35,441 nucleotides of DNA. Source: Verrucomicrobiota bacterium (lineage in GTDB: Bacteria; Verrucomicrobiota; Verrucomicrobiia; Limisphaerales; JADLHS01). The number at the start of each line of letters is the position of its first letter. Within the stretch, counting starts at the first letter, position 1. Below, piece by piece: positions 5,463-33,817 of the stretch. The translations under genes and the position numbers were made by a program. Under the pieces are notes generated by a model. The model was not told where the DNA came from and did not search any database. It saw only the letters and a list, made by a program, of their open reading frames with translations. The DNA lies in the NCBI GenBank assembly GCA_025350905.1, contig JANXWY010000230.1, positions 1-35,441 of the forward strand. The letters run 5' to 3'.

Positions 5463-6713
5463 TTAAGATTTGTTCTGAATCCAGTTCATCGCCTTTTCCG
5501 CCAGCAGGTCGAACGCGGTGACACTAAGTTCCAGGTGCGCTTCCCGTGTATCTTCGAGCGGATTGTGGCTGATGCCGTGCAGGCTTTGCACAAACATCAT
5601 GACCGTCGGCACCCCGGCGGCCGCCACTGCGGCGGCGTCGTGCAACGGACCGCTCGAGAGCTGATGGGAGGTGCCGCAGGTTTCGCGGATGACTCCGTCG
5701 CAAAGCGCAATCAGTTCGGCGTGGAACGGGCGCGGCGCAATTTGCCAGAGGCGCTGCCACGAAACCTTCACATTGCCTTCGTGGGCGAAGTGTTCGCTGG
5801 CGGCTTTTGCCTGCTGCAGCATCTGCGCGAGTGCGGCGGCATCGAGATGGCGTTGATCTAGCGTAAGGCGGCAGGCCGCGACGACGCTGGTGACAATGCC
5901 GGGTTTGGTCGTGCAGTCGCCGATGGTGCAAACGCCACCGGAGCTGCGCTCGGCGATGCGATAAATTTCCGGAGCCATTTTTGCAGCGGCGAGGAAAGCG
6001 TCCTGACGGCGATTCATCGGCGTGCTGCCAGAGTGGGCCGCCTGGCCGTGAAACGTGATCGCATGCCGTTCCACTCCGAAGGTGCCGAGCACCGCGCCGA
6101 GCGGCAGCCCGAGGTCGAGCAACACCGGGCCTTGCTCGATGTGCAATTCCAAATAGGCGGCAGCGTTCTTGAGTTCCAAGCTGCTGTCCGGCACGCGTTC
6201 AAAATCGATCCCCACGGCTTTGAGCGCGTCGGGCAGGCGGATGCCGTCCTTATCCTTCAGGCCGCGAGCTTCGTTCAGATTGAGCTGGCCGGCGCAGGCG
6301 GACGAGCCGAATAAACTTTTGCCGAAGCGCGCGCCTTCTTCATCCGCCCAATCCACGAGGCGCACCGTCACGGGCGGGCGGCCCTGATATTGCGCGTTGA
6401 GGCGTCGGAGAATTTCCAGGCCTGCCAAAATGTTCAGGCAGCCGTCGAGCCAGCCGCCGTTCGGCACGGAATCCAGGTGGCCGCCAATCAATAAACACTT
6501 TTCAGAATCGCCGTTAAGCGTGCTCCAAAGATTCCCCGCGGCGTCGACGTGCGTTTCGACCGGAAGCGTTTCGAGTTTTTGGCGCAGCCACTGGCGGGCC
6601 TTCATCCATGTCGGCGTGAACGCAACCCGTTGCGCGCCGTGCGCGTCGCTGGTGAGAGCGCGGAGTGCTTTGAGCTCCGCGATGGTGCGTTGGGGATTTA
6701 ACAGACTGCTCAT
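5463..6713 (-). CDS. M20-family amidohydrolase, probable N-carbamoyl-beta-alanine amidohydrolase
   Basis: The product is about 416 residues starting at the ATG at 6713. The longer open frame upstream is only the antisense of the neighbouring dehydrogenase gene. It is a zinc-dependent hydrolase of the allantoate amidohydrolase / beta-ureidopropionase / L-carbamoylase group. Metal and active-site blocks are visible: GGHLDSVPNGG (His79), WLDG (Asp90), DEEGARF (Glu125/126), ELHIEQGP (His191), AAHSGSTPM (His227) and the C-terminal GISHNPLED. In the pyrimidine pathway this enzyme hydrolyses N-carbamoyl-beta-alanine to beta-alanine, CO2 and ammonia. The dihydropyrimidinase and PreA-like genes next door favour that role over allantoate degradation. 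It is divergent from the PreA gene, with start codons very close together. Cytoplasmic; no signal peptide. Confidence 0.88.
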   Translation of the reverse strand: MSSLLNPQRTIAELKALRALTSDAHGAQRVAFTPTWMKARQWLRQKLETLPVETHVDAAGNLWSTLNGDSEKCLLIGGHLDSVPNGGWLDGCLNILAGLEILRRLNAQYQGRPPVTVRLVDWADEEGARFGKSLFGSSACAGQLNLNEARGLKDKDGIRLPDALKAVGIDFERVPDSSLELKNAAAYLELHIEQGPVLLDLGLPLGAVLGTFGVERHAITFHGQAAHSGSTPMNRRQDAFLAAAKMAPEIYRIAERSSGGVCTIGDCTTKPGIVTSVVAACRLTLDQRHLDAAALAQMLQQAKAASEHFAHEGNVKVSWQRLWQIAPRPFHAELIALCDGVIRETCGTSHQLSSGPLHDAAAVAAAGVPTVMMFVQSLHGISHNPLEDTREAHLELSVTAFDLLAEKAMNWIQNKS

Positions 6714-6728
6714 GGGGTTGGTATTTTC

Positions 6729-7916
6729 TTGTGGCAAATCCGCGGACCAAGCCCGTATGCTGCGCGGGCAAACGAAAAATGGAAAGGCAATCCCATCGCC
6801 ACACTCGCCACGACCGTTGACGGCCTCCGGCTCCCGAATCCTTTTGTGATTGCCTCTGGCCCTCCGGGAACCAATCGCAACGTTATTGGCCAGGCGTTCC
6901 AGGCCGGCTGGGGTGCGGTGATCGCCAAGACCGTGAGCCTCGACGCCACCAAAGTCATCAACGTCACCCCGCGCTACGCCAAACTGCTCGCGACGAACGG
7001 GGAAGTCATCGGCTGGGAAAATATCGAGTTGATCAGCGACCGTCCGTTTAAAATCTGGGAGGAGGAATTCAAACAGTGCAAAGACCGGTTCCCGGACCGC
7101 ATCCTCATCGCCTCGGTCATGGAGGAATATCGCCGGGACGCTTGGGTCGAAATCATCGAACGCTGCCAGGCGTGCGGCGTGGATGCCTTTGAACTCAACT
7201 TTTCCTGCCCGCATGGCTTGCCCGAACGCCAGATGGGTGCGGCAATGGGGGAGAACCCGGAGATTTTGGAGGAAGTTTGCGGCTGGGTGAAAAACGCTGC
7301 GAAAAAACCGTTCTGGGCCAAGATGACGCCGAACATCACGCACATCGAAGACCCGAGCCGCGCCGCGCTCAAGGCGGGGGCGACCGGCATCAGCGCCATC
7401 AACACGCTGCGTTGTGTCATGGGCGTGAATCTCGACACGTTGCGCCCCGAACCAACGGTGGAAGGTTACAGCACGCCCGGCGGCTACTCCTCGAAAGCCG
7501 TGCGTCCGATTGCGCTGCGGATGGTCATGGAAATCGCCACGCTGATCCGCAGGGAATTTCCCGGCCGTTCGTTGTCCGCGATCGGGGGCGTCGAGAGCGG
7601 CGCCGACGCCGCGCAATTTATCCTGCTCGGTGGCGACACGGTGCAGGTCTGTACTGGCGTGATGAAGTTCGGCTACGAAATGGTGAAGCCCATGTGTGAC
7701 GAATTGCTCGCGTTCATGGCGAAACACCAGTTCGAGACGCTCGCTGATTTCAAAGGCAAGAGCCTGGATTATTTCACCACGCACGCCGATCTCGTGAAGC
7801 GCCAGACCGAACGCAAAGTGGCGCAAAAAGCCACGACGTCCGCGAAGGTTGTCCAGAGCGACGATGAGTGGAGCGGGGAAGAATTTGTGAAGCAATCCAG
7901 CGCGTTGGCGAACTGA
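6729..7916 (+). CDS. preA: PreA-like dihydropyrimidine dehydrogenase (FMN/DHODH-type) subunit
   Basis: This is an FMN-dependent TIM-barrel oxidoreductase of the dihydroorotate/dihydropyrimidine dehydrogenase family. Family blocks include VDGLRLPNPFVIASGP, ELNFSCPHGLPERQMG, WAKMTPNITHIEDPS, SAINTLRCVMGVNLD, RPIALRMV, IGGVESGADA and VQVCTGVMKFGY. It would reduce uracil/thymine to the 5,6-dihydro forms, normally with the NADH subunit PreT. Two oddities stand out. There are no C-terminal cysteine clusters for [4Fe-4S] centres. The loop that in mammalian DPD carries the active-site Cys (as I recall it, ACGQDPE) reads AAMGENPE here. The given start is the only standard in-frame one (TTG); homology begins about residue 24, near a non-standard ATC at 6795 preceded by ggaaagg, so the true start is unsettled. 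The next gene, the semialdehyde dehydrogenase, starts 147 nt downstream. Confidence 0.85.
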   Translation: MWQIRGPSPYAARANEKWKGNPIATLATTVDGLRLPNPFVIASGPPGTNRNVIGQAFQAGWGAVIAKTVSLDATKVINVTPRYAKLLATNGEVIGWENIELISDRPFKIWEEEFKQCKDRFPDRILIASVMEEYRRDAWVEIIERCQACGVDAFELNFSCPHGLPERQMGAAMGENPEILEEVCGWVKNAAKKPFWAKMTPNITHIEDPSRAALKAGATGISAINTLRCVMGVNLDTLRPEPTVEGYSTPGGYSSKAVRPIALRMVMEIATLIRREFPGRSLSAIGGVESGADAAQFILLGGDTVQVCTGVMKFGYEMVKPMCDELLAFMAKHQFETLADFKGKSLDYFTTHADLVKRQTERKVAQKATTSAKVVQSDDEWSGEEFVKQSSALAN

Positions 7917-8063
7917 AATGAAACCCGAAGCCCCAAACCCCGAGCACCCGAGTAGCTCCCGGCATCACCGGCCCAGCTCCGATCGCTCGGGCCCACAAGC
8001 TTTGAGGTTTGGCACTTGGCTGGTCTCGAGAGCACGGCGCATGCACGTTGGAACTTTTTATTT

Positions 8064-9566
8064 ATGACCCTCGAACCCTGTCCCTTTTTCATCGGTGGCG
8101 AATGGCTGCCCTCCCGGCACGCCACCACCCCCGTCCATAATCCGTCGACGGGCGACGTCATTGCCGAATCTCCCGTGGGCACGACCGCCGAGGTGAACGC
8201 CGCCGTCGAAGCCGCGCACGCCGCGTTCCCGGCGTGGATGGAAACGCCGGCCGTCGAACGGGCGCGCGTCCTCGGCCGCTTCAAGCAGTTGATGGAGGAT
8301 CATTTTGAAGACCTGGTCCGCAGCAACACGTGGGAGCACGGCAAAACGCTTGTGGAATCGCGCGGCGATGTGAAACGCGGAATGGAAGTCGTCGAGTTCG
8401 CCCTCGGCGTGCCTTCGCTACTCATGGGCGACGTGCTGGAAAACCTCGCGCGCGGCATTGATTGCGAAGCCATCCGCCAACCGCTCGGCGTGTGCGTGGG
8501 CATTACGCCCTTCAATTTCCCGGCGATGGTGCCGCTGTGGATGTATCCCATCGCCATCGCCTGCGGCAACACGTTCGTGCTCAAGCCGAGCGAGAAAGTT
8601 CCGCTCACCGCCATCAAGATCGCCCGGCTGTTTGAACAGGCCGGGCTGCCCAAAGGCGTGTTGAACATCGTTCATGGGGGACGCGTGGTCGTGGACGCGT
8701 TGCTGACGCATCCGAAAGTGAAGGCGATTTCCTTCGTCGGCTCGACGCCCATTGCACGTTACATTTACGAGACCGGCACGAAGCACGGCAAACGCGTTCA
8801 GTCCAACGGCGGCGCGAAGAATTATGTCATCCTGATGCCGGATGCCGACGTGGAGAACTCCACGCGCGGCGTCATGGAAGCCGCGTTTGGCTGCGCCGGG
8901 GAGCGCTGCATGGCCGGTTCCACCGCCGTCGTGGTCGGGGGGGCGGAGAAAACCGTGTTGCCGACCCTGATCGAAGCCACGAAGCGCATTAAAGTCGGCC
9001 CGACGGATCGCGCGGTGCAACCGGACATGGGCGCGGTGATCACGCGCCAGCATCGGGACCGGGTGCTGGAATTGATCGAAGCGGGCGTGCAGGAAGGCGC
9101 GAAAATTCCCGCCGATGGTCGCGGGGTCAAAGTGAGCGAAGCGCCGAATGGGTTTTACGTCGGCGCCACCCTCCTCGATCACGTGCAAGCCGGGATGACG
9201 GTGGCGCGGGAGGAAATCTTCGGCCCGGTGCTGAACGTGATGCACCTGGAAGATTTGGATGCGGCCATCGCGCTGGCGAATAGTTCTTTTTACGGCAACG
9301 GGGCGGCCATCTTTACCCGTTCCGGCAAGGCGGCGCGGGAGTTCAAACACCGGGTCAACTGCGGCATGATCGGCATCAACATCGGCGTGCCGGCTTCGAT
9401 GGCGTGGTTTCCGTTCAACGGCTGGAATGACTCGTTCTTCGGCGACCTGCACATGCAGGGCAAGGAAGGCGTGCAATTTTTCACCCAGCAGAAGGTGACG
9501 ACGAGCCGCTGGTTCAGCTATGGCGAAGGCGACATCTGGCATACGGAGAAGAAATCAGTTCAGTAA
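8064..9566 (+). CDS. mmsA: CoA-acylating methylmalonate-semialdehyde dehydrogenase
   Basis: The product is about 500 residues, the usual length for MMSDH. It belongs to the aldehyde dehydrogenase superfamily: it oxidises (methyl)malonate semialdehyde with NAD+ and CoA to propionyl- or acetyl-CoA, losing CO2. The catalytic Cys282 lies in FGCAGERCMAGS. The Rossmann region has GITPFNFPAMVPLWM and FVLKPSEKVP. The position that holds the general-base Glu in ordinary aldehyde dehydrogenases reads SNGGAKN, the Asn form typical of CoA-dependent MMSDH. The start is the ATG at 8064 (MTLEPCPFFIGGEW); the in-frame upstream extension lacks homology. Set among pyrimidine-catabolic genes, it would finish the pathway by handling malonate or methylmalonate semialdehyde made from beta-alanine or beta-aminoisobutyrate. 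The transaminase needed in between is not in this window. Confidence 0.92.
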   Translation: MTLEPCPFFIGGEWLPSRHATTPVHNPSTGDVIAESPVGTTAEVNAAVEAAHAAFPAWMETPAVERARVLGRFKQLMEDHFEDLVRSNTWEHGKTLVESRGDVKRGMEVVEFALGVPSLLMGDVLENLARGIDCEAIRQPLGVCVGITPFNFPAMVPLWMYPIAIACGNTFVLKPSEKVPLTAIKIARLFEQAGLPKGVLNIVHGGRVVVDALLTHPKVKAISFVGSTPIARYIYETGTKHGKRVQSNGGAKNYVILMPDADVENSTRGVMEAAFGCAGERCMAGSTAVVVGGAEKTVLPTLIEATKRIKVGPTDRAVQPDMGAVITRQHRDRVLELIEAGVQEGAKIPADGRGVKVSEAPNGFYVGATLLDHVQAGMTVAREEIFGPVLNVMHLEDLDAAIALANSSFYGNGAAIFTRSGKAAREFKHRVNCGMIGINIGVPASMAWFPFNGWNDSFFGDLHMQGKEGVQFFTQQKVTTSRWFSYGEGDIWHTEKKSVQ

Positions 9567-9586
9567 CCCCTGGCTGCAGCCAGGGG
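9567..9586. repeat. Perfect 20-nt palindrome abutting the mmsA stop
   Basis: The sequence cccctggctgcagccagggg is a perfect palindrome that begins immediately after the TAA of the preceding gene. It can form a strong GC hairpin in RNA. It is not followed by a T-tract, so it may act as an mRNA-stabilising or attenuating hairpin rather than a classic terminator. Confidence 0.7.
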
Positions 9587-9607
9587 TGGCCACCGCGAAG
9601 ACCCGTT

Positions 9608-9695
9608 AGCCGTTTCAACGGCTTCGTTCTCGCCAAATAAACCGTTGAAACGGTTCGAAAAATCTTTGGACGCGAAGCACCCGGCTGAAGCCGGG
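9608..9695. repeat. Three short TGAA/TTCA-loop palindromes
   Basis: Three hairpins follow one another: agccgt-ttca-acggct (9608-9623), aaccgt-tgaa-acggtt (9640-9655) and cccggc-tgaa-gccggg (9680-9695). Each has 6-bp arms around a four-base loop, and the first two are inverted relatives of each other. This fits a cluster of REP-like elements between the dehydrogenase and dihydropyrimidinase genes. It may separate expression of the two. Confidence 0.7.
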
Positions 9696-9737
9696 GGCTA
9701 AGGCACGCGGAAGCGCTGACAGGATTGGAGTTTGGTT

Positions 9738-11120
9738 ATGAGTCTACTGATCAAGAACGGTGAAATTATCACGGCGGACTCACGCTACGTAGCGGACATC
9801 TTCTGCGAGAACGAAACCATCACCCGCATTGACCGTAAAATCGCACCGCCGAAAGGCGCGGACGTCGTTGATGCAAAGGGTAAATTTGTCTTTCCCGGCT
9901 TCATTGATCCGCATGTTCACATCTACCTACCGTTCATGGGCACGTTCTCGAAGGACGATTACGTCACCGGCAGCCAGGCCGCGCTGATCGGCGGCACGAC
10001 TACGCTCATCGAGATGTGCTGTCCGGCGAAGTCGGATGATGCGCTCGCCAGTTTTGAACTGTGGATGAGCCAGGCCGTCGGAAAGTCCGCGTGCGATTTC
10101 TCCTTTCACATGGGGGTGACCCGGTTCGATGCGAAGACCGAGAAACAACTGCGCACAATCGTGAAACGCGGCATCAGTTCGTTCAAAATCTTCCTGGCCT
10201 ACCAGGGCGCGTTCGGCGTGGACGATACGGAACTCTATCGCACGCTGAAGCTGGCGAAGGAACTCGGCGTCATTGTCGCCGCGCATTGCGAGAACGAAAC
10301 GCTCGTCAGCGAACGGTGCAAGGAATTGCTCGTCGCCGGAAAAACGGATCCCGGCCAACATCATGAAAGTCGTCCGCCCGCCGTCGAAGCGGAGGGAGTG
10401 CACCACTTGCTGACCTTTGCCGAACTGACCGGCGCCGCGATTTACATCGTCCACTTGAGCTGCCAGGAGGCGTTGAACCAGGCCGTGGCCGCCCGCCAAC
10501 GCGGCGTTCGCGTCAGCATCGAGACGCTGATCCAGTATTTAACGCTTGATAAAACCTACGCGGAGAAGCCGCAATTCGAGGGCGCCAAATACGTCATGTC
10601 GCCGCCCCTCCGCGACCAGCGGAATCAGGAAATTCTTTGGAACGGCCTGCGTGACGGGCTGGTGCAAACGGTCGCCACCGACCACGCGCCGTTCGACTTC
10701 CGGAAACAGAAGCAGATGGGCAAAATTGATTTCACGAAGATCCCGAACGGCATTCCGTCGCTGGAAGATCGCATCAACCTGCTTTACACCTACGGCGTGA
10801 AGAAGGGAAAGATTGACCTGCACACCTTAGTGAACGTCGCCAGCACGCAGGTCGCGAAGACGTTTGATCTGTTTCCGCGTAAAGGCACGATCCAACCCGG
10901 CGCGGACGCCGATCTCGTGGTGTATGATCCAAATTATCGCGGAAAAATTTCCGTGAAGACCCAGCACATGAACGTGGACTACAGCGCGTTTGAAGGTTGG
11001 AAAATCGAGGGCCGTCCGAGCCTCGTCACCGTGCGCGGCCAAGTCGCGGTGCGCGATGGCAAATTCGTCGGCAAGCGCGGCCACGGAAAATTTTTGCAGC
11101 GCAAACCGAGTCACTTTTGA
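9738..11120 (+). CDS. hydA: Dihydropyrimidinase / D-hydantoinase
   Basis: The product is about 460 residues, the usual size. It is a cyclic amidohydrolase that opens dihydrouracil/dihydrothymine to N-carbamoyl-beta-amino acids in the cytoplasm. Binuclear metal ligands are visible: DPHVH (His59, His61), the carbamylated lysine in SSFKIFLAYQG (Lys150), AAHCEN (His183), YIVHLS (His239) and ATDHAPF (Asp315). HHESRPPAVEAEGV is another family signature. The start is the ATG at 9738, with a GGAG ribosome site at 9727-9730, seven bases away; an in-frame TTG six bases earlier is less likely. Its place after the PreA-like and MMSDH genes supports a pyrimidine-degrading role rather than a hydantoinase of other substrates. 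Confidence 0.93.
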   Translation: MSLLIKNGEIITADSRYVADIFCENETITRIDRKIAPPKGADVVDAKGKFVFPGFIDPHVHIYLPFMGTFSKDDYVTGSQAALIGGTTTLIEMCCPAKSDDALASFELWMSQAVGKSACDFSFHMGVTRFDAKTEKQLRTIVKRGISSFKIFLAYQGAFGVDDTELYRTLKLAKELGVIVAAHCENETLVSERCKELLVAGKTDPGQHHESRPPAVEAEGVHHLLTFAELTGAAIYIVHLSCQEALNQAVAARQRGVRVSIETLIQYLTLDKTYAEKPQFEGAKYVMSPPLRDQRNQEILWNGLRDGLVQTVATDHAPFDFRKQKQMGKIDFTKIPNGIPSLEDRINLLYTYGVKKGKIDLHTLVNVASTQVAKTFDLFPRKGTIQPGADADLVVYDPNYRGKISVKTQHMNVDYSAFEGWKIEGRPSLVTVRGQVAVRDGKFVGKRGHGKFLQRKPSHF

Positions 11121-30367: not shown

Positions 30368-30661
30368 TGTATTGTCGCCGTTAGGGATCGTGCCGGGCAG
30401 GGAAATCCCCGGGTGAGCGGCAAACTTGCGTCTGGTTTTTTAGAAAAAGCGATCTTTGCTTGAGTGGTTTCTGAACAGGGAAGGCTAGGGTCTAGGCGCG
30501 CGCGCGAAAAGCCAGGGGAAATCTTAGCCGTCACCGAGCATTCGATCTGCAGTCATATGAATGGGTTCGGCGGGGTTCCGGGTTGCGGAATCCGACGGGC
30601 TGAAAGGGAGTCGGACTGCGGAATACCAGATTGGCAACGATTCTGCGTCCGTCAGCTCCAG

Positions 30662-33600
30662 ATGTGTACCAAAGGAGTGTTGGGTCATGTGGGCAGCAAA
30701 GTCCGCTCCGCCTTGGCTTTGAGTTGTCTCATGTTGGTATTCCAAAGCCCGCTTTTTGCCACTGGCAGCGTCACGCTTGCATGGGACGCCAGTCCGGATG
30801 CCAGCGTGACGGGTTATCGAATTTATTACGGCGCCGCGAGCTTGAGCTACACGAACTCCACGACTGTTGGTAATGTTACCAACGCGACGCTCACTGGTCT
30901 GGTAGCGGGTGCGACCTACTTTTTTGCCGCGACTGCCCTCAATTCAACGAATGTAGAAAGCGGTTTTTCCAACGAAACCACCTACACGGTTTCCACTTCT
31001 GCGACCACTCAAGCGCCCGCAATCACGACTCAGCCCGCGAGCCAAAGTGTGCCGGTGGGTGCGACTGTGAGTTTTACGGTGGTAGCGGGCGGGACCGCGC
31101 CGTTGAGTTATCAATGGCGTTTGAACGGGGCGAACCTCGGCGGGGCGACGAGTGCCACATTGAGTTTTACGAATGTGACAACGAGCCAAGCCGGCAGTTA
31201 CAGCTGTCGGGTCACGAATGCTGCTGGGAGCGTCACGAGCAGTACCGCGACCTTGACGGTGAGCGCGCCGCTGGTCGCTCCGAGCATTACAACCCAACCC
31301 GCGAACCAAAGCGTGATGGTGGGCGCGACTGTGAGTTTTGCGGTGGTGGCGAGCGGGACCGCGCCGTTGAGCTATCAATGGCGTTTGAACGGGGCGAATC
31401 TCGGTGGAGCGACAAGCGCGACGTTAAGTTTGACGGGAGTAACGACAGGTCAGGCCGGCTCGTACAGTTGCGTCGTGACGAACGCTGTCGGCAGCGTCAC
31501 GAGCAGTGCCGCGACCTTGACAGTGGGCGCCCAGCTGGTCGCTCCGAGCATCACAACCCAACCTGCAAGCCAAAGTGTGACGGTGGGCGCGACTGTGAGT
31601 TTTGCGGTGGTGGCGAGCGGGACCGGGCCGTTGAGCTATCAATGGCGTTTTAACGGAGCGAATATAGGGGGAGCGACAAACGCGACGATAGATTTGCCAG
31701 GCGTAACGACGGGCCAAGCCGGCAACTACAGTTGCTTCGTGGCGAACGCAGCCGGCAGCGTCACGAGCAGTGCTGCGACCCTGACGGTGAGCGCGCCGCT
31801 GGTCGCTCCAAGCATCACGACCCAACCGGTGAGCCAAAGCGTGATGGTGGGCGCGACTGTGAGTTTTGCGGTGGTGGCGAGCGGGACGGCGCCGCTGAGT
31901 TATCAATGGCGCTTTAACGGGGCGAATATAGGGGGAGCGACAAACGCGACGATAGATTTGCCAGGCGTAACGACGGCCCAAGCCGGCAACTACAGTTGCT
32001 TCGTGGCGAACGCAGCCGGCAGCGTCACGAGCAGTGCTACGACCCTGACGGTGAGCGCGCCGCCGGTCGCCCCAAGCCTCACGACCCAACCGGCGAGCCA
32101 AAGTGTTACGGCGGGCGCGACTGTGAGTTTTGCGGTGGTGGCGAGCGGGACCGCGCCGTTGAGTTATCAATGGCGCTTGAACGGGGCGAACCTTGGCGGG
32201 GCGACGAGTGCGATGTTGAGTTTAACGGGAGTAACGACAGGCCAAGCTGGCAACTACAGTTGCTTCGTGGCGAACGCAGCCGGCAGCGTCACGAGCAGTA
32301 CCGCGACCCTGACCGTGATCACTCCGCCGGTCGCCCCAAGCCTCACGACCCAACCGGCGAGCCAAAGTGTTACGGCGGGCGCGACTGTGAGTTTTGCGGT
32401 AGTGGCGAGCGGGACCGCGCCGCTGAGTTATCAATGGCGCTTGAACGGGGCGAACCTTGGCGGGGCGACGAGTGCGATGTTGAGTTTAACGGGAGTAACG
32501 ACGGGCCAAGCCGGGAACTACAGTTGCTTGGTAGCGAACGCAGCTGGTAGCGTCACGAGCAGCGCAGCATCTTTGACGGTGCTGGCGCAGACCTCGCAAC
32601 TCTCCTTGAACCAATCCGGTTCCGGTACCATCACGCCGGATTTGGGCAATGCATCCTTGGTCGTCGGTCAGAGTTACACGTTGACCGCGAAGCCGGCGGC
32701 GGGATATGTGTTCGCGGGCTGGAGCGGCGGGGTCCAGTCCACGTCGCCCACGCTAACGTTCATCATGACAGCGGGGCTGGGGTTGCAGGCCAATTTCCTC
32801 GCCAGTCCGTATGTGGCGATGGCGGGAACTTACAACGGGTTGTTTAGCGAAGCGGACGAAGTCCGAGCATCCAGCGCCGGTGCTTTCAACATCTATACCG
32901 ACACCAGCGGCAACTACTCCGGTTGGTTGCAGATCGGCTTCACCCGTTACACGGTGGCGGGTCAACTGAAGCTGGACGCCAAGGCCACCAACACGGTGGC
33001 CCGTTGGAACGGCACCTCGCTGACCGTGGAATTGCGCTTTGGCCAAGGCAGCGAAGTTGGACAAATTTTTGGTCGCATTACCGATGGCAGTTGGACTTCG
33101 CTACTTTCGGGTGGACGGGCGGCTTACCAGACGGGAGGAAACGCTCCCCAGGCCGGAGATTACACGATGGTCTTCCCCGGTCAGGTCGGCGATCCGAGCC
33201 TGCCGGAAGGTGATGGCTTCGGCACTTTGCATGTGGGGACGGACGGCTTCGGCACGCTGAGTGGGACGCTGGCCGACGGCACCTCATTTTCGCAAGCCGC
33301 CTGGCTGACGGCGGAGGGCGAGTGGCCGTTATACGTATCTTTGTACGCGGGCAAAGGCGCGGTGATAAGCTGGATGACATTTACGAACGAAGCCACGAGT
33401 GACCTCAATGGCGAGTTTGTGTGGGTCAAGCCGGCCGATCCGTCAACCGCGCAGTACACAGCGGGCTTCACCAGCAACACCAAGGCCGTGGGTTCGTTCT
33501 ATGTCGCGCCAACTGGAACCAGCAAAGCATTGGCCCTATCGACCGCGTTCGTGAGTTTCACGGGTGGAAATCTGTCAACCGACATTACGAATACCGTGAC

Positions 33601-33817
33601 CATGAATGCGGGCAGTCAGGTGGTAAATCTAAGTCCCAATTTGCTGACCTTGACGATTTCCCCCTTGCTCGGAAGTTTCACCGGTCAGGTGGTTGAGCCG
33701 GGGAACGGAGTGGTGCATCCCTTTAGTGGAGTCGTCCTGCAGAAAATGAACGGTGGTTTCGGTTTCCTGCCGGGCGTAACCCGCAGCAGTCGAGTCACCG
33801 TCACTGCCGCGCCCTAA
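30662..33817 (+). CDS. Secreted protein with fibronectin-III and six tandem Ig-like repeats
   Basis: The product is about 1051 residues from ATG 30662. A GTG at 30689 sits 11 nt after AAAGGAG (30671-30677) and is a good alternative start; both keep the signal peptide (KVRSALALSCLMLVFQSPLFA). Next come a fibronectin type III-like domain (about 35-113), six Ig-like repeats of exactly 88 residues (about 116-643) each with PLSYQWR.NGAN and AG.YSC blocks, a short bacterial repeat domain (GSGTITP...YVFAGWSGG), and a C-terminal beta-rich region of about 370 residues with the AGTYNGLFSE opening often seen in verrucomicrobial surface proteins. No catalytic site was recognised. It is probably an adhesin or extracellular binding protein. 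Confidence 0.85.
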   Translation: MCTKGVLGHVGSKVRSALALSCLMLVFQSPLFATGSVTLAWDASPDASVTGYRIYYGAASLSYTNSTTVGNVTNATLTGLVAGATYFFAATALNSTNVESGFSNETTYTVSTSATTQAPAITTQPASQSVPVGATVSFTVVAGGTAPLSYQWRLNGANLGGATSATLSFTNVTTSQAGSYSCRVTNAAGSVTSSTATLTVSAPLVAPSITTQPANQSVMVGATVSFAVVASGTAPLSYQWRLNGANLGGATSATLSLTGVTTGQAGSYSCVVTNAVGSVTSSAATLTVGAQLVAPSITTQPASQSVTVGATVSFAVVASGTGPLSYQWRFNGANIGGATNATIDLPGVTTGQAGNYSCFVANAAGSVTSSAATLTVSAPLVAPSITTQPVSQSVMVGATVSFAVVASGTAPLSYQWRFNGANIGGATNATIDLPGVTTAQAGNYSCFVANAAGSVTSSATTLTVSAPPVAPSLTTQPASQSVTAGATVSFAVVASGTAPLSYQWRLNGANLGGATSAMLSLTGVTTGQAGNYSCFVANAAGSVTSSTATLTVITPPVAPSLTTQPASQSVTAGATVSFAVVASGTAPLSYQWRLNGANLGGATSAMLSLTGVTTGQAGNYSCLVANAAGSVTSSAASLTVLAQTSQLSLNQSGSGTITPDLGNASLVVGQSYTLTAKPAAGYVFAGWSGGVQSTSPTLTFIMTAGLGLQANFLASPYVAMAGTYNGLFSEADEVRASSAGAFNIYTDTSGNYSGWLQIGFTRYTVAGQLKLDAKATNTVARWNGTSLTVELRFGQGSEVGQIFGRITDGSWTSLLSGGRAAYQTGGNAPQAGDYTMVFPGQVGDPSLPEGDGFGTLHVGTDGFGTLSGTLADGTSFSQAAWLTAEGEWPLYVSLYAGKGAVISWMTFTNEATSDLNGEFVWVKPADPSTAQYTAGFTSNTKAVGSFYVAPTGTSKALALSTAFVSFTGGNLSTDITNTVTMNAGSQVVNLSPNLLTLTISPLLGSFTGQVVEPGNGVVHPFSGVVLQKMNGGFGFLPGVTRSSRVTVTAAP
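31007..32590 (+). repeat. Six 264-bp tandem repeats encoding Ig-like domains
   Basis: The period is exactly 264 bp, with unit boundaries near 31007, 31271, 31535, 31799, 32063 and 32327. Units 5 and 6 are nearly identical in DNA, and units 3 and 4 share a variant block (FNGANIGGATNATIDLP) not found in the others. This shows recent duplication or conversion of neighbouring units. Such arrays can gain or lose units in frame. Confidence 0.9.

Follow-up and report, generated by a model that had tools for sequence, protein, structure and literature searches.

How does a predicted bacterial uracil reductase obtain its electrons when it carries no iron-sulfur (Fe-S) domain and no PreT subunit is encoded beside it? 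This question is raised by a pyrimidine catabolism cluster of four open reading frames (ORFs), three on the plus strand and one divergent, which was recognised from the ORF list and profile searches in a 35,441-nucleotide stretch of DNA from a Verrucomicrobiota bacterium (contig JANXWY010000230.1 of GCA_025350905.1). The whole stretch, hereafter the window, corresponds to contig C351 in an assembly of 6.27 Mb and 489 contigs. An original prediction had described there a cluster leading from uracil to beta-alanine, with a semialdehyde dehydrogenase and a PreA-like protein, and profile searches bore out the presence and the family of each of the four genes. We consider it probable that the cluster serves reductive pyrimidine catabolism and is headed by a uracil reductase of the plant PYD1 type, fed by general cellular reductant. 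Judged from its sequence, the entry enzyme is very probably a PYD1-type uracil reductase within this pathway, and a general protein carrier is tentatively proposed as its electron donor. The original prediction had missed the parallel with plant PYD1. Published work is cited below by PMC number from the available portions of each paper.

A PreA-like reductase with a cysteine-free tail

The reductase is annotated at family level as PreA, scoring 382.9 bits against NF006183 (cut-off 335); the match spans only profile positions 2-332 of 422, and the sole Pfam domain is DHO_dh. After the flavin mononucleotide (FMN) domain, all seven PreA proteins compared carry 86-139 residues with 8-10 cysteines and two CxxCxxCxxxC motifs, whereas the last 50 residues of the window enzyme hold no cysteine, in agreement with the earlier description of a PreA without C-terminal [4Fe-4S] cysteines. 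Residues were compared in an alignment of 50 proteins, comprising 36 PYD1-like proteins, seven PreA, pig dihydropyrimidine dehydrogenase (DPD) and six class 1B dihydroorotate dehydrogenases (PyrD 1B). The PYD1-like rows include the window enzyme, two mutually identical rows and one that we take to be Arabidopsis PYD1, a provisional sequence used in this form in the BLASTP comparison, the alignment and the tree; two proteins, L002 and L234, were left out. All 36 PYD1-like rows, drawn from two phyla and including one from a single-contig genome (G178, locus L036), have the cysteine-free tail, and T351, H352 and Q359 of the tail are invariant among them. The provisional Arabidopsis sequence has the same cysteine-free tail with a TTH...W...D motif. 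An annotation trap is apparent here: the NCBI PreA model scores the window enzyme above threshold despite the missing Fe-S part, so that it would be named NAD-dependent without evidence.

Active site

The original prediction had placed a methionine where DPD has its active-site cysteine, and had suggested that the chemistry of the enzyme may differ. Neither point was borne out, as Met173 aligns with pig Cys684, while the catalytic Cys671 corresponds to Cys160 and is intact. In the PDB chain 1h7x, titled C671A, alanine occupies the C of NLSCPHG, which aligns with NFSCPHG in the window enzyme. At the Cys671 position, cysteine is present in every row of the alignment (36/36 PYD1-like, 7/7 PreA, the pig row and 6/6 PyrD 1B). 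The Cys684 position is methionine in 34 and valine in 2 of the 36 PYD1-like rows, and phenylalanine in the PyrD rows. A refuting alignment had been specified as one in which bacterial PreA proteins all share the residue. At the position originally named, which is noncatalytic, PreA proteins have valine (4/7) or isoleucine (3/7); at the catalytic position all have cysteine.

Nine further positions, which we take to serve the FMN and uracil sites of pig DPD (574, 609, 611, 613, 668, 670, 709, 736 and 737), are identical between the window and pig enzymes. The window protein has the DPD-type N609, E611 and I613 and the SCPHG motif, and it has H673 and G674 as in DPD, where the six PyrD 1B rows have asparagine and a gap. 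C671 of DPD is catalytically essential and acts as the proton donor to C5 of uracil (PMC8097209). With Cys671 intact and the nine site positions identical, nothing points to altered uracil chemistry; on these residues, the chemistry of the window enzyme should be ordinary, leaving only its electron supply in question.

Phylogeny and predicted structure

With PyrD 1B as the outside group, the PYD1-like proteins and PreA/DPD formed one group (support 100/100), and the window enzyme fell among the PYD1-like rows. The alternative set out at the start, that the protein would group with true dihydroorotate dehydrogenases, was thus not what the tree returned. The PYD1-like rows were not a clade in the best tree and came together in 18% of bootstrap trees, and a constrained tree holding them together was not rejected (p-AU 0.285). 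With their monophyly undecided, the Fe-S domain may have been lost in one lineage or gained in the other. The provisional Arabidopsis row paired with a planctomycete protein (L162; 99/88) inside a group of 27 rows (99/99), and a first tree that also held two very long rows agreed on this placement. Both trees were built without the canonical PreA of loci L132 and L133, and the second also without L002, L234 and L088 (identical to L037). In BLASTP, the window enzyme and the provisional Arabidopsis PYD1 sequence shared 61% identity over 376 columns.

An AlphaFold2 model of the window enzyme was coarse, with a mean pLDDT of 75 and a tail of low confidence. Foldseek searches with this model placed pig DPD chains at ranks 1-39 and, from rank 40 on, dihydroorotate dehydrogenase (DHODH/DHODB) chains, with TM scores of about 0.67-0.70 of the query and root-mean-square deviations of 10-12 Å. 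The predicted fold thus supports the family, at a level without structural detail.

One of the two proteins left out of the residue alignment deserves separate mention. On a plasmid of Rhizobium sp. ACO-34A (L234, 2995-4101), a PreA-like protein of 368 amino acids, annotated as hypothetical, has 32% identity to the window enzyme and a very long branch; its gene adjoins those of an ABC transporter and a D-amino-acid oxidase. It is perhaps another short subfamily.

Search for an electron-supplying partner

PYD1-like enzymes are not regularly accompanied by an electron subunit of either the PreT or the PyrK type. No preT was found in the window cluster, as originally noted, and a genome search for it, also proposed at that time, returned three proteins with PF14691 (the PreT/GltD Fe-S domain), all on other contigs. 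These are an orphan GltD-family protein (L033; TIGR01318, 519.1 against 482.95), a GltD adjoining an ORF that looks GltB-like by eye (L034), and a protein labelled NuoG/HydB-like by eye (L035). Five PreT/GltD-like queries matched 0 of 111 PYD1-like loci, a set in which some genomes are represented more than once (L135 with L088 and L217 with L124, at the least), and 1 of 2 canonical preA loci. In the latter (L132) the end of PreT lies directly upstream of preA. The second canonical locus (L133) stops inside preA, and in the same genome contig C457 encodes a PF14691 protein a short way ahead of a PreA fragment. In G007, a genome of the window's family, preT adjoins a canonical Fe-S preA. In the annotation of E. 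coli and of 4/7 plasmid loci, the gene directly before preA codes for PreT or for an NAD(P)-dependent oxidoreductase; one of the seven is L234, which is not a canonical PreA.

At the level of whole genomes, PF14691 is missing from 10/22 carriers of the PYD1-like gene (8/17 that are 97-99% complete and 2/4 others) and present in the window genome, while PF10418 (PyrK) passed its cut-off in only 2/23 carriers. The suggestion that the electron supply may differ from that of PreAT therefore stands: the enzyme has no Fe-S domain, its cluster no PreT and ten carriers no PF14691 protein. This comparison across genomes argues against a general donor of the PreT or PyrK type, and we rejected both as general partners on these counts. 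An ORF with a CxxCxxCxxxC motif lies within 5 kb in 6/111 PYD1-like loci against 9/9 canonical PreA loci, and by eye the six look like chance frames. Among 80 loci from the contig scan and 31 planctomycete loci, judged mostly by eye, no neighbour cluster looked like a redox protein that keeps a constant position next to the PYD1-like gene.

Two further candidates were set aside. Frames of about 800 amino acids in several planctomycete loci suggested fusions to redox domains; by eye they run out of frame through the upstream sequence. In L043 and L044 (genomes G362 and G234 of one genus), a protein resembling by eye the Fe-S subunit of succinate dehydrogenase is encoded divergently beside the PYD1-like gene. 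This arrangement was taken as chance.

Proposed pathway and alternative explanations

By analogy with DPD, FMNH2 would reduce uracil (or thymine) by hydride transfer, with Cys160 supplying the proton, to give dihydrouracil. HydA would open the dihydrouracil ring, and the M20 enzyme would release CO2 and NH3 to leave beta-alanine, which an AGXT2-like transaminase encoded on another contig may convert to malonate semialdehyde. The coenzyme A (CoA)-acylating dehydrogenase would then form acetyl-CoA. FMN would be re-reduced by general cellular reductant and not by a dedicated subunit, with soluble ferredoxin or flavodoxin as a first guess.

Several observations weigh against this proposal. No electron donor emerged from the analysis. 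PF14691 proteins are held by 12/22 carriers, the window genome with its orphan L033 included, and in these an unlinked PreT-like donor is possible. Among the matches listed, Fer2 occurs in at least 14/15 genomes and Fer4_7 in 15/15, so that these families do not discriminate, and such matches do not equal a soluble ferredoxin in each genome. The window cluster itself is without NCS1 permease and transaminase genes, the substrates of the M20 enzyme and of the aminotransferase are drawn from gene context, and we know of no bacterial member of the group with demonstrated uracil activity. In addition, when the rice homologue was produced as a recombinant protein, it showed activity neither with NAD(P)H nor as a class 1A DHODH (PMC9930899).

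The genome might encode a dedicated electron subunit at another site; a GltD-like orphan such as L033 or an unrelated flavoprotein would be examples. The presence of this orphan in the window genome favours such an arrangement, as does the partner that workers on the plant enzyme postulate (PMC2713857, PMC9930899), but it is made unlikely by the ten carriers that have no PF14691 protein and by the habit of canonical preA, which keeps preT adjacent in L132, in the E. coli annotation and in 4/7 plasmid loci. Alternatively, NAD(P)H could reduce the FMN directly with no protein partner, as happens in the tRNA dihydrouridine synthases. This would account for the lack of a conserved redox neighbour and would need neither PreT nor PyrK. 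We regard it as rather improbable; the rice homologue was inactive with both NADPH and NADH, but that preparation showed no activity at all (PMC9930899).

It is very improbable that the protein is a class 1 DHODH caught in a catabolic cluster. DHO_dh is indeed its only Pfam domain, and class 1A enzymes function as one-domain FMN proteins (PMC9585004), but the tree separates it from PyrD 1B, its site residues are of the DPD type, its neighbours belong to the pathway, and a quinone-type PyrD (L003) is already encoded in the genome. Finally, an ordinary PreA of this metagenome-assembled genome (MAG) might have lost its Fe-S domain to damage or faulty assembly, for which the odd start codon (ATC where 11/11 relatives compared have ATG) and the 489 contigs could be cited. 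Except for the start codon, this explanation is already refuted by a cysteine-free tail conserved throughout the PYD1-like rows, in two phyla and in a single-contig genome.

Returning to general cellular reductant as the source of electrons, a wider reading can be offered, more tentatively still than a protein carrier for the window enzyme. The one-domain uracil reductases of Verrucomicrobiota and Planctomycetota may need no dedicated subunit, with a general carrier or NAD(P)H itself as their direct source of electrons, and the chloroplast PYD1 of plants may derive from them, in which case the puzzle of the plant donor might be solved in these bacteria.

The cluster in the window

Coordinates of the genes and of the reductase features are collected in Table 1.

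Table 1. Features of the pyrimidine catabolism cluster (window positions).
Feature	Coordinates	Strand	Basis
M20 hydantoinase/carbamoylase-family amidase	5463..6713	-	TIGR01879, 290 bits vs 204
Predicted PYD1-type dihydropyrimidine dehydrogenase, FMN/uracil domain only, 395 aa	6729..7916	+	NF006183, Pfam DHO_dh, tree
Codon of Cys160 (pig DPD catalytic Cys671), in NFSCPHG	7206..7208	+	alignments; C671A title of 1h7x
Codon of Met173 (pig Cys684)	7245..7247	+	alignment
Cysteine-free C-terminal tail, 50 residues, replacing the PreA 2x[4Fe-4S] domain	7764..7913	+	alignment
CoA-acylating methylmalonate/malonate-semialdehyde dehydrogenase (MMSDH), 516 aa	8016..9566	+	TIGR01722, 642.4 bits vs 448.5
Dihydropyrimidinase / D-hydantoinase HydA (PydB), 462 aa	9732..11120	+	TIGR02033, 542.2 bits vs 393.25

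The M20 gene, divergent from the reductase gene, encodes a probable N-carbamoyl-beta-alanine amidohydrolase (PydC), a substrate suggested by gene context; its product matches the narrower models for allantoate amidohydrolase only below their cut-offs. A transaminase, for which a genome search had also been proposed, has a candidate on contig C463 with 70% identity to one linked to the cluster in relatives. With PydA, PydB, PydC and the semialdehyde dehydrogenase in the window, this candidate would complete the Pyd set from uracil to acetyl-CoA in the genome. The first ATG of the MMSDH frame is at 8064 and that of the HydA frame at 9738. For the reductase, all 11 relatives compared have ATG at the codon corresponding to 6795-6797, where the window has ATC. 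The TTG at 6729, which is the sole in-frame ATG, GTG or TTG upstream of 6795, lies about 15 bases away from where the divergent M20 gene starts. Translation may begin at this TTG or, unusually, at the ATC, or the assembly may be wrong at this codon; by homology with the relatives, the start is probably at 6795.

Two other proteins of this genome were noted. On contig C333, a DHODH-like protein (L002; NF005741) is encoded directly after an ORF resembling the final part of a pyruvate:ferredoxin oxidoreductase, and the window itself encodes, at 30464-33817, a protein of 1117 amino acids that combines six immunoglobulin-domain stretches with a match to fibronectin type III.

Distribution and gene neighbourhoods

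The PYD1-like protein group occurs in Verrucomicrobiota and Planctomycetota. At E <=1e-90, the type was found in 11/387 genomes of the window's phylum, in 29/392 of the phylum of a Pirellula genome, and in 1/398 of the phylum of a Magnetospirillum sp. MAG, namely that MAG itself. Within the 57 genomes of the window's kin, its own included, the full gene is present at >=80% identity in eight and as a contig-end fragment in G002, and two of the 57 (G007 and G011) have a PreA of 42% identity to the window enzyme. In the Magnetospirillum MAG (L080) the whole cluster is present, with M20, PYD1-like, MMSDH, HydA, NCS1 and aminotransferase genes, and the PYD1-like gene is nested among those of Verrucomicrobiota; the cluster there is either a transfer or part of a mis-titled assembly.

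Neighbourhoods were taken from the best 80 of 447 relatives in the contig scan, mostly Verrucomicrobiota by title and many on short contigs. An ORF-based count recovered the PYD1-like ORF in only 55/80 loci owing to longer antisense frames, and tblastn counts (>=45% identity) were used instead. By these, M20 and HydA were each found in 58 loci and MMSDH in 54; 40 loci encode a class-III aminotransferase and 39 an NCS1 permease, two families that were confirmed on representatives. In the 31 planctomycete loci the recurring neighbours were a hydantoinase (21) and an aldehyde dehydrogenase (19), both identified by eye, and a carbon-nitrogen hydrolase (18), an NCS1 permease (11) and an NCS2 permease (9), for which representatives were checked. 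The carbon-nitrogen hydrolase representative matched an N-carbamoylputrescine amidase model under its cut-off. An apparent aminotransferase cluster was rejected because its representative was BioA-like, and its count was not used.

In a genome of the window's family (L133), a preA of 41% identity adjoins MMSDH (86%) and HydA (89%) genes, in the kind of place held by the PYD1-like gene in relatives, and the preA of L132 carries the Fe-S tail. This swap fits an interchangeable function with different electron supply.

Comparison with known systems

The E. coli PreTA enzyme and other split PydA/PreA systems share with the window enzyme the FMN domain, Cys671 and the same predicted reaction, at 35% identity to E. 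coli PreA and 37-42% to three plasmid PreA. Bacterial PreA, however, has its two C-terminal 4Fe-4S motifs (7/7) and usually an adjoining PreT, and the window has neither. Pig DPD is alike in FMN-domain fold, uracil site and Cys671, but joins these in one chain with a flavin adenine dinucleotide (FAD)/NADPH domain and four 4Fe-4S clusters (PMC8097209, PMC7332683). Clostridial PydAc likewise has no FAD/NAD(P)H domain and is located in a Pyd cluster, but retains Fe-S domains that accept electrons from ferredoxin (PMC7332683). The pathway resembles that from uracil to acetyl-CoA in Bacillus megaterium, with PydABC, a beta-alanine aminotransferase and a semialdehyde dehydrogenase, although PydA is there listed with an adjacent Pyr_redox_2 protein (gene names from PMC7332683). 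Brevibacillus agri PydA is said to be without the N-terminal domain (PMC2713857), but PMC7332683 counts this organism among those in which a Pyr_redox_2 protein lies next to PydA. As described in the available text, the bacterial PydA survey in PMC7332683 demanded a [4Fe-4S] domain, so that an Fe-S-free group would be invisible to it. In the open-licence PMC literature, judged mostly by title, we found no report of a bacterial Fe-S-free enzyme of the PYD1 kind.

The closest likeness is to plant PYD1, represented by Arabidopsis PYD1 and rice OsDHPD, which comprises only the FMN/uracil half of DPD and, as in the window enzyme, is without the Fe-S, FAD and NAD(P)H parts (PMC9930899, PMC2713857). 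A required partner was postulated for the plant enzyme and was still unidentified in 2009 (PMC2713857), and the available text of a 2023 study of OsDHPD reports that neither activity nor a partner was found (PMC9930899). The plant enzyme differs in being a chloroplast protein whose gene is not in an operon, whereas the bacterial gene sits with those of HydA, M20 and MMSDH. Bacterial operons with a PYD1-type enzyme offer proteins to purify and genetics on uracil as a nitrogen source, and thus a bacterial route into the question of the PYD1 electron donor. The kind of enzyme is already known from plants and the pathway is of a known kind; it is the entry enzyme that is uncommon.

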